NCBI RefSeq assembly: GCF_026242195.1
Contig: NZ_RKLV01000005.1
Span: forward strand, 124,001-188,000
Direction of reading: 5' to 3'
Length of the DNA stretch: 64,000 bases
From: Halorutilus salinus
GTDB lineage: Archaea > Halobacteriota > Halobacteria > Halobacteriales > Halorutilaceae
Shown here: one piece after another, positions 15,097-46,034 of the stretch
Layout: the number at the start of each line of letters is the position of its first letter
Numbering within the stretch: position 1 is the first letter of the stretch
Position numbers and translations under genes: made by a program
The notes under the pieces: model-generated
What the model was told of the DNA's origin: nothing
Databases searched by the model: none
Seen by the model: only the letters and a program-made list of their open reading frames with translations

Positions 15097-16485
15097 ATGA
15101 AGGTACTCGTGATCGGCTCAGGAGGTAGGGAGCACGCGATAACACGTGCGCTCGCCGCGTCCGATGTCGTCGAAGAGGTACACGCCGCAGTCTCTAACCG
15201 AAATCCGGGAATCGTCGAACTCGCCGACTCCGTACGAGAACTCGATACCAACTCGCCGGACGAGGTCGTGGGGTATGCAAACGAGGCGGATGTTAGCTAC
15301 GCCGTCGTCGGTCCCGAAGCCCCTCTCGAAGCGGGCGTCGTCGACGCTCTCGAAGAAGCGGGCGTCTACGGCTTCGGTCCGCGCGCCGCCGACGCACGTA
15401 TAGAGACCGACAAGGCGTGGGCGCGGCGTTTCATGGGCGAGAACGGCGTAGACGGCACGCCCGACTTCGAGGTCTTTGACGACGCCGACGAGACGGCGGA
15501 GTACGTCGTCGCACAGGACGACGACGTCGCTGTCAAGCCCCACGGTCTGACGGGCGGAAAGGGCGTACGCGTCACGGGCGACCAGATGACACACGACGAA
15601 GCCGCCGAGTACGTCCGCGACAGCGACTGGGACGACTGGGTTGTTGAAGAACGTCTCGTGGGCGAGGAGTTCACGTTACAGGCGTTCGTGGCGAACGGTG
15701 AGATACGTCCCTCGCCCGCCGTACAGGATCACAAACGCGCCTACGAGGGCGACGAGGGTCCGAACACGGGCGGTATGGGTAGCTACAACGACGCCGGACG
15801 CCTGCTTCCGTTCATGGACGAGGAAGAGTACGACGACGCCCTCGGTATCATGGAACAGGTCGTCGAAGGTCTCGACGACTACCGCGGCGTCCTTTACGGA
15901 CAGTTCATGCTGACCGACGAGGGTCCAAAGGTCGTCGAGTTCAACGCGCGTTTCGGCGACCCCGAAGCTATGAACGTCCTGCCCTTGCTCGAAACCGACT
16001 TCGGCGAACTCGTACGCGGCGCGAGCGAAGGCGAGATGCCGCCGGTTACGTTCGCCGAACGTGCGACCGTCTGTAAGTATATCGTTCCCGACGGCTATCC
16101 GACCGACCCGGAGGCGGGAGCTGAGATAGATATCGACGTAGAGGGCGACGACGGTACGCTCGTCTTCTACGCGAGCGTTGATGGGCGAAGCCCATCCGCA
16201 GGTCAGAACACAGGAGGTTCTGACGACGTTGATGAGCGAAGCCCATCCGCAGGTCAGAACACAGGAGGTTCTGACGACGTTGACGCGCGTGACGGGAAGC
16301 TGTACACCACCACGTCGCGCGCCGTCGCCGTCGTCGGACTGGGCGACACCATCTCGGAGGCTGAGGAGCGCGCAGAGACGGCGCTCGACGACGTTGGCGA
16401 AGGTCTCCGAGTCAGGCACGACATAGGGAAGCCCGACGTCGTACAGAAACGCGTCGACCATATCCGGGAACTGCGGGGTGAGTGA
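15097..16485 (+). CDS. purD: Phosphoribosylamine-glycine ligase with an in-frame repeat insertion
   Basis: 462 residues from the ATG at 15097. PurD joins glycine to phosphoribosylamine with ATP in purine synthesis. The N domain begins MKVLVIGSGGREHAI; the ATP-grasp core shows PHGLTGGKGVRV, GPNTGGMGSY and VVEFNARFGDPE. In the C-terminal domain, between ASVD and RDGKLYTT, sit two tandem 17-residue repeats (starting GRSPSAGQNT and ERSPSAGQNT) encoded by 51-bp DNA repeats. They are not part of the family and probably form a surface loop. The reading frame is kept. The stop lies 1 base before the ATG of the nucleotidyltransferase. Confidence 0.93.
   Translation: MKVLVIGSGGREHAITRALAASDVVEEVHAAVSNRNPGIVELADSVRELDTNSPDEVVGYANEADVSYAVVGPEAPLEAGVVDALEEAGVYGFGPRAADARIETDKAWARRFMGENGVDGTPDFEVFDDADETAEYVVAQDDDVAVKPHGLTGGKGVRVTGDQMTHDEAAEYVRDSDWDDWVVEERLVGEEFTLQAFVANGEIRPSPAVQDHKRAYEGDEGPNTGGMGSYNDAGRLLPFMDEEEYDDALGIMEQVVEGLDDYRGVLYGQFMLTDEGPKVVEFNARFGDPEAMNVLPLLETDFGELVRGASEGEMPPVTFAERATVCKYIVPDGYPTDPEAGAEIDIDVEGDDGTLVFYASVDGRSPSAGQNTGGSDDVDERSPSAGQNTGGSDDVDARDGKLYTTTSRAVAVVGLGDTISEAEERAETALDDVGEGLRVRHDIGKPDVVQKRVDHIRELRGE
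16177..16278 (+). repeat. Two tandem 51-bp double-hairpin repeats inside purD
   Basis: Units are 16177-16227 and 16228-16278 and differ at one base. Each has GATGGGC-GAA-GCCCATC (16180-16196; one mismatch in unit 2) and GTCAGAAC-7 bases-GTTCTGAC (16202-16224). The length is a multiple of three and adds 34 residues to PurD without breaking it. Two adjacent inverted repeats per unit indicate a palindromic element that entered coding DNA. Confidence 0.85.
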
Positions 16486-24450: not shown

Positions 24451-25047
24451 ATGCGAATAGACGCCGACTTTGTTGAAAAGTACCTCGAACTCTACGACGA
24501 GACACAGGGCGTCCTGCCCGAACGTCTCGAAGGCTTCGGCGAGACGTACCGCGAACAAGGGCATCTGACACAGGACGACCTGTACGAGATAGCGTACGAG
24601 TCGTCGACACGTAGCGCGCACCACGTACGGCGCAACCCGCCCGAGTTATGCGTCGAGGTTACCGAGAACGTCCTCGCTCTCGAAGACGAGGGCGACGACT
24701 TCTCACAGATCGCCCTCGTTTCGGCGCTCCACGGCTTCAAAGCCGCGACGGCGTCGTGTGTCACCGCGGCGCTCGCACCCGAAAGGCATGCCGTCGTCGA
24801 TACGCGCGTCCGGGCTTCGCTCGAACGCGCGGGACGCCTCAACGGTGGGAAGGAGACGTCCGACGTTCGTGAATCGGGAGATTCACGAGCCAGCGAGGAC
24901 TCAAAGAGTCCTCGTGACGCCTTCGACTACTGTAAGATGGTGGACGAGATACGTCGTATCGCGGATAAGACGGGGTACGCGCCCGTCGACGTTGGATACG
25001 CCCTTTTCGCCTATGACTACGACGTGCGCGAAGGAACACTACATTAA
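24451..25047 (+). CDS. Conserved-looking helical protein carrying a double-hairpin insertion
   Basis: 198 residues, mostly helical. The segment HAVVDTRVRASLERAGRL recalls the helix-hairpin-helix side of DNA glycosylase-like folds, but I cannot confirm this. Residues about 138-156 (DVRESGDSRASEDSKSPRD) are low-complexity and are encoded by two adjacent perfect hairpins, so they look like an in-frame insertion between two helices. It starts 36 bases after the propeller gene. Function unknown. Confidence 0.6.
   Translation: MRIDADFVEKYLELYDETQGVLPERLEGFGETYREQGHLTQDDLYEIAYESSTRSAHHVRRNPPELCVEVTENVLALEDEGDDFSQIALVSALHGFKAATASCVTAALAPERHAVVDTRVRASLERAGRLNGGKETSDVRESGDSRASEDSKSPRDAFDYCKMVDEIRRIADKTGYAPVDVGYALFAYDYDVREGTLH
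24868..24914 (+). repeat. In-frame double-hairpin element
   Basis: CGTGAATC-GGGA-GATTCACG (24868-24887) and CGAGGACTC-AAA-GAGTCCTCG (24894-24914), separated by 6 bases. Both stems are perfect. The element sits inside the open frame at 24451-25047 and has the same two-stem layout as the repeats in purD, although the sequences differ. Confidence 0.75.
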
Positions 25048-45704: not shown

Positions 45705-46034
45705 GCCGTCGTTCGGAGTCCCACCGATCCGGTACCGTCCTCGTGGTTCTGGTACCGCCTTGACGGATAACGTGTTGTCTTAGCCCGTTCCCACGTCCCC
45801 TTCTTCGTATCCGTTTTGTATCCGTTCCTGTGTTTTCTGTCTTCGTATCCGTTCCCGCGCCTTCCGTCCTTGTATCCGCCCCCATATCTTCCGTCCTCGT
45901 ATCTTCCGTCTCCGTACCCCCTGACCTCGCAATTTCAGCCTCAGTAATAGGTACGACCGTTAGCCGTTGGGACACCGCCCGCGTCAACGCCGAGGGCGGT
46001 TTACCCTCACCTACCCTTCTACCTCACTACCGCT
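45705..46034. repeat. Intergenic region with degenerate 27-bp tandem repeats
   Basis: About three imperfect 27-bp copies beginning TATCCG (roughly 45827-45905), preceded by a shorter TATCCGTTTTG and followed by a partial copy. On the minus strand they lie in a 109-codon open frame (45658-45987) with Thr/Asp/Glu-rich nonapeptides, but that frame overlaps the microprotein and has no promoter or family. I see no other gene in these 330 bases. Confidence 0.5.

Follow-up and report, generated by a model that had tools for sequence, protein, structure and literature searches.

The CGTC-tagged REP superfamily is known from five bacterial phyla; its repeats are mostly dimers, are partly intragenic, have no known transposase and include RPE-4 and RPE-6 as well as Neisseria dRS3 (Di Nocera et al. 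2013, PMC3733652). The superfamily has been reported from bacteria only. From haloarchaea, PATEs have been described, including terminal-only forms of 52 bp with a target of 4-5 nt (Dyall-Smith et al. 2011, PMC3119063). Palindromic elements inside genes had been known from bacteria, among them Rickettsia, and the present analysis extends them to archaea.

The DNA analysed (the window) is a stretch of 64,000 nt from Halorutilus salinus, in which the gene purD carries an insert of two tandem copies. Judged by sequence alone, this insert very probably represents a tandem pair from a family of two-hairpin palindromic elements (approximately 46-57 nt) in haloarchaea, which are non-autonomous and would behave as mobile DNA.

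The purD insert and its two copies

The ORF at 15097-16485 was identified as PurD by matches to the GARS_N, GARS_A and GARS_C domains. The following features were assigned, all on the plus strand:

15097-16485, +, purD, host gene (GARS_N, GARS_A and GARS_C matches; alignment with relatives)
16174-16177, +, left flanking tetranucleotide AGCG, a variant of the GACG target (the covariance-model match starts here; G002 empty site)
16178-16228, +, element copy 1, 51 nt, GACG end (R1 model, 50.7 bits)
16180-16196, +, copy 1 hairpin 1, GATGGGC-GAA-GCCCATC, 7-bp stem, GAA loop
16202-16224, +, copy 1 hairpin 2, GTCAGAAC-ACAGGAG-GTTCTGAC, 8-bp stem, 7-nt loop
16229-16279, +, element copy 2, 51 nt, GACG end (R1 model, 47.7 bits)
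16231-16247, +, copy 2 hairpin 1, one A-C mismatch (16235)
16253-16275, +, copy 2 hairpin 2

The two tandem 51-nt copies are 98% identical with one mismatch. They were placed at 16176-16226 and 16227-16277 by the repeat finder, and at 16178-16228 and 16229-16279 in the element register, which begins after the left tetranucleotide. The mismatch is a G-to-A change at 16235 in copy 2, which breaks a pair of the first stem and replaces Gly by Glu; the A is probably the later state. The reading frame of purD is preserved across the insert, and PurD has 462 aa instead of the 428 aa expected without it. The 34 extra residues (predicted reading DGRSPSAGQNTGGSD; the predicted peptide stretch also includes DGRSPSAGQNTGGSDDV) are located between the conserved motifs YAS and YTTTSR. 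The description given in the earlier note (two 51-bp two-hairpin copies in frame in purD, 34 residues, a difference of one base) was thus confirmed by repeat, hairpin and frame analysis.

The same note had proposed an alignment of PurD homologues. In this alignment, the insert position was empty in all 29 other haloarchaeal PurD proteins, including that of the congener G002 (82% identity), in which the empty site reads GCGAGCG-TCGATGAACGCG. In an AlphaFold2 model based on a 20-sequence alignment, the insert had a pLDDT of approximately 30 and most of the remainder a pLDDT above 85; on this prediction, a flexible loop that links two strands is the best reading of the insert.

Some other haloarchaeal PurD proteins possess their own, unlike inserts approximately 20 residues upstream of the Halorutilus salinus site. 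In genus g9 (L009, L051-L056; also L057-L080), the insert at this upstream position is flanked on both sides by the repeat GAGAGCG and belongs to a second, unlike family of two-hairpin elements, which are in frame and read as a peptide like SEARSASDKSSGDEPRD. That family is dispersed in many genes, with matches in 25 of 29 genomes. It was not merged with the purD-insert family, since the sequences differ. As a separate observation, the repeat finder located an array of 27-bp (and overlapping 15-bp) tandem repeats at 45818-45916 of the window.

The folding z-scores of the purD repeat were -4.3 (DNA) and -4.4 (RNA), and none of 200 shuffled sequences was equally stable. Chance or base composition as the source of the purD hairpins and of the family was ruled out by the shuffles and by Markov-3 and bacterial controls. 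As the genome of Halorutilus salinus is a draft of 17 contigs, an assembly artefact was considered, at least for the tandem copy; it is barely conceivable, given that the copies differ by one base and that similar elements and tandem arrays were present in several independent genomes.

DNA searches of the own genome, the family, 394 genomes of the class, plasmids and phages did not reveal the exact 51-nt unit at any other site. Together with the 98% identity of the copies, which makes a local duplication the probable source of the second one, this uniqueness would fit a minisatellite, i.e., a palindromic stretch of purD duplicated in place without any mobile origin. However, the sequence is missing from the purD genes of relatives, and elements at many other loci agree with the purD insert in hairpins, spacing, phase, length and the terminal GACG, so that a purely local origin is very unlikely. 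An inserted mobile element remains the preferred reading; its history in purD was probably one insertion, then a local duplication by slippage or unequal recombination, and then one substitution. Two separate insertions are less likely than a single one that was then duplicated across its ends, since the copies are near-identical, unlike those in the arrays of other genomes. The tandem duplication had earlier been taken as a sign of recent spread. Local duplication was supported, but spread of the exact unit was not, as this unit is unique.

Architecture and distribution of the element family

The family emerged only once structure, rather than sequence, was searched. A search for the 51-bp unit and for two-hairpin elements, as suggested in the earlier note, returned the exact unit from purD only; elements of the same architecture were found elsewhere. 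Their layout is a GACG followed by T - stem-loop 1 - GCCA - stem-loop 2 - (N) - GACG, with a length of approximately 46-57 nt across the family. The GCCA joint directly followed hairpin 1 in 34 exact cases; seen from the GACG side, the tail reads TGGC. Loops comprised 3 nt in 70 of 82 first and 72 of 82 second hairpins, with variable loop sequence. The second hairpin is often ATCAGAAC..GTTCTGAT family-wide, GTCAGAAC being found in purD and stems with TCC, ACC or GCC in others. Of 88 elements, 80 had GACG as their right end and 51 had it as their left flank; these counts are biased by the covariance model.

Both purD hairpins fell into the common columns of an alignment of ten elements that included purD. 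In this alignment, 98.3% of the cells were paired, 16 of 18 pairs changed on both sides, and 39 double changes were counted (0 of 500 shuffles); sliding of the partners lowered pairing to 25-43%. In two sets of model-aligned matches (40 and 150), Watson-Crick pairs made up 94-95% of the pairs and G-U pairs only 1.5-2%. The purD copies were used in building the covariance model, and their own scores are not independent. Hairpin 2 of purD (GTCAGAAC...GTTCTGAC plus GACG) resembles ATCAGAAC...GTTCTGAT plus GACG of genomes outside model building. The purD element is atypical in its left tetranucleotide AGCG and in the sequence of hairpin 1, which is unlike that of other copies.

The hairpins also fold stably as RNA, as would be expected if they were retained as an RNA or regulatory structure acting in mRNA stability, termination or translation. 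Such a role is highly improbable, because the stems change by Watson-Crick double substitutions and contain hardly any G-U pairs, the host genes are unrelated, the insertion positions differ, and the elements are absent from relatives. The compensatory changes are instead read here as a sign that hairpins of DNA are selected for or serve as templates.

At the lenient threshold of E<=0.1, the covariance model had matches in every one of the 44 Halobacteriales genomes of good quality, with high counts in three (38 in Halorutilus salinus, 76 in G013 and 40 in G021). Palindromes may match on both strands, and these counts are upper values. At E<=1e-8, matches were present in 18 of 33 genomes of the same order and in 2 of 164 others of the phylum, with 20 in the own genome. 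Bacterial control DNA did not exceed 13.9 bits, compared to 40-79 bits for the analysed elements. A 59-nt consensus matched 30 plasmid records; among the matches listed, 25 of 25 were haloarchaeal (including Natrinema, Halobacterium, Haloferax, Natronomonas and Halocatena), mostly outside annotated genes. Two adjacent perfect hairpins occurred 19 times in 464 kb of the own genome versus 1-4 times in Markov-3 controls; generic double hairpins were not enriched in a second genome sample of 387 kb (7 versus 2-8 in the control).

Insertion sites, reading frame and mobilisation

A second element is located in the window in a gene without any Pfam or NCBIfam match:

24451-25047, +, second host gene, conserved protein of unknown function, 198 aa
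24862-24865, +, left GACG target
24866-24919, +, second window element, 54 nt, in frame, GACG end (R1 model, 67.7 bits)
24867-24888 and 24894-24914, +, hairpins of this element

The orthologues of this gene in G002, G003, G012, G013 and G025 lack precisely the 18 residues of the element. The gene for RNA polymerase subunit D (rpoD) bears an exact insertion of 51 nt or 17 residues (the predicted insert peptide includes DVRQTQSDEPSNSAEV), which is absent from two congeners. Further in-frame copies were detected by a hairpin-pattern search in YjbQ (UPF0047), an intein-bearing PolB, a TnpB and an unnamed gene, together with one non-coding element pair. The in-gene elements of this genome comprise 51 or 54 nt and have the form GACG, then T-hairpin-GCCA-hairpin-GACG. 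Empty sites were demonstrated for purD, rpoD and gene 24451-25047, which shows that core genes (purD and that of an RNA polymerase subunit) carry such elements where the sites of relatives are cleanly empty.

Several further occurrences were recorded in the same genome. On contig C11 (L259 1913-9463), the ORF of a family B DNA polymerase with 2517 codons contains several inteins and one in-frame element. The TnpB genes of IS200/IS605 copies (L085 15425-16730; L255 7.0-8.3 kb; L256 7.6-9.1 kb) contain many two-hairpin elements, in either orientation, and the frame is still kept. A related two-hairpin subfamily (L255 7026-7067, L261 7672-7713, L256 7135-7176, L100 13601-13648), with ATACG as right end and GCAG or GCAA as joint, partly adjoins IS605 copies. 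One element lies beside a sequence resembling an IS605 right end in a 334-bp repeat that is present at two places of the genome with 98% identity (L236 1241-1574 and L241 1241-1574).

Insertion took place immediately 3' of a GACG-like tetranucleotide (AGCG in purD) and in fixed orientation. In rpoD and gene 24451-25047, the empty site contains GACG once, and 51 or 54 nt ending in GACG were gained; formally, this gain can also be read as a 4-nt duplication. Several genomes contain head-to-tail arrays of unlike elements, each of which begins at the terminal GACG of the preceding one, and from these arrays joined at a shared GACG it was inferred that an element regenerates its own target.

Sense-frame elements in long ORFs had a length that is a multiple of three in 15 of 17 cases, as compared to 26 of 71 others (Fisher p=2e-4), which indicates that selection filters landings in genes. 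The earlier expectation of lengths divisible by three was met for most in-gene copies and failed outside genes, where lengths of 49, 53 or 55 nt are frequent. Within genes, selection would retain only stop-free copies with a length that is a multiple of three. In the acidic ORFs of the window, 694 of 960 GACG occurrences were in the phase of a GAC codon. Because GACG is mostly read as a GAC codon plus G, the in-gene elements repeatedly yield the same polar peptide, typically DVRQTxSDEPSRSxASGD. The GACG target, the Asp codons of haloarchaea and length selection thus provide a concrete reason for the recurring peptide frame. An insert of 51 or 54 nt would be read as a polar, probably disordered peptide looping out of the protein. 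That the insert-bearing proteins are expressed and functional is inferred from indirect support only, namely core host genes, intact frames and a loop predicted to be disordered.

The elements may move as folded single-stranded DNA by means of a hairpin-binding recombinase; this is inferred. No mobilising enzyme was identified for them. Four Y1 (IS200-type) TnpA genes are present in the own genome, and elements cluster in and around its IS605 copies. The elements could thus be terminal-only remnants of IS200/IS605, like the ~52-bp PATEs of Haloquadratum, moved by an IS200-type TnpA. PATEs are described (PMC3119063) as having two near-terminal palindromes, a length of ~52 nt and a one-sided target of 4-5 nt without target duplication, and the elements were likewise inserted beside a target of 4-5 nt without net target duplication. 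Against this origin, the own IS605 copies end in GGGTAGTTNAC (TTNAC-type) and not in GACG, the hairpin at their left end (GGTTCGGTG..CACCGAACC) does not resemble those of the elements, and the elements interrupt TnpB genes, i.e., they arrived later. Moreover, the nearly complete genomes G007 and G008 have model matches and no Y1 gene, and the published 52-bp form of HqIRS46 retains one of its two 22-bp palindromes and not two hairpins. An IS200/IS605 remnant is doubtful on this balance. No ends common to the elements and an IS605-type transposon were found among the IS605 copies of the own genome, and direct derivation from these copies is unsupported by their ends.

Since the IS605 ends are not GACG and G007 and G008 lack Y1 genes, the mobilising enzyme was left open. 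A transposase of the HUH/Y1 type acting in trans would be the likeliest class of mover, as a leading guess that is unproven. It is possible, and proposed here only tentatively, that the two-hairpin elements are clade-wide archaeal minimal mobile elements which regenerate GACG and so stack head to tail, are read as harmless polar peptides through acidic-codon bias, and depend on an unknown recombinase. With GACG-to-GACG stacking, the unknown mobilisation of CGTC-type palindromes becomes testable in tractable organisms, e.g., Haloferax.

Comparison with described repeat systems

The elements share with PATEs (PMC3119063) the haloarchaeal host, a minimal size of ~52 bp, near-terminal palindromes, a target of 4-5 nt, and the lack of target duplication and of a transposase gene. 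In contrast to PATEs, whose ends are IS605 transposon ends, they have no own-genome IS605 ends; insertion in frame into genes is not described for PATEs in the passages of PMC3119063 consulted. With GTAG-tagged REPs and REPINs they have in common short, usually paired hairpin units with a tetranucleotide at the hairpin foot; they differ in the tag (GACG/CGTC), and no transposase gene flanked by elements was found, as RAYT genes are by REPs.

Like Rickettsia palindromic elements (RPEs), the haloarchaeal elements are palindromic, dispersed, in frame in unrelated essential genes, and apparently tolerated as extra peptide; in-frame copies were found in purD, rpoD, gene 24451-25047, YjbQ, PolB and TnpB. 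They differ in their size of ~51 nt (longer RPEs have ~100-150 nt), their two hairpins and a defined GACG target. The earlier suggestion of an archaeal counterpart of RPEs was borne out by in-frame elements of the same layout in unrelated genes, with clean empty sites and a haloarchaea-wide distribution. The note knew of no described archaeal counterpart, and none was found in the open-access literature searched, the coverage of which was incomplete.

Among described repeats, the CGTC-tagged REP superfamily comes closest. The reverse complement of an element is CGTC plus a stem-loop, and this tag borders a hairpin on one side in both purD copies and in 80 of 88 elements. Stems of 8-9 bp and mostly dimeric hairpins are further common traits, as are copies both between and within genes, those within genes being in frame, and the lack of a known dedicated transposase. 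In the superfamily the stem begins with complementary A/T residues; in the elements this start varies, the second stem often beginning with AT, but with GTCAGAAC in purD and with TCC, ACC or GCC elsewhere. The unpaired tail of type CCA in the superfamily compares with GCCA after hairpin 1, or TGGC from the GACG side. The loops are mostly of 3 nt instead of 4-5 nt, a fixed GCCA joint connects two unlike hairpins, the host is archaeal, and head-to-tail arrays share GACG, whereas head-to-tail dimers are negligible in the bacterial CGTC repeats. By analogy, and without a comparison to RPE sequences, the haloarchaeal elements appear to work like RPEs and CGTC-tagged REPs, as an archaeal variant and not as proven members. 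Distinguishing traits are the length of their loops, the fixed GCCA between the hairpins, arrays in which the target is regenerated, and their occurrence in archaea.
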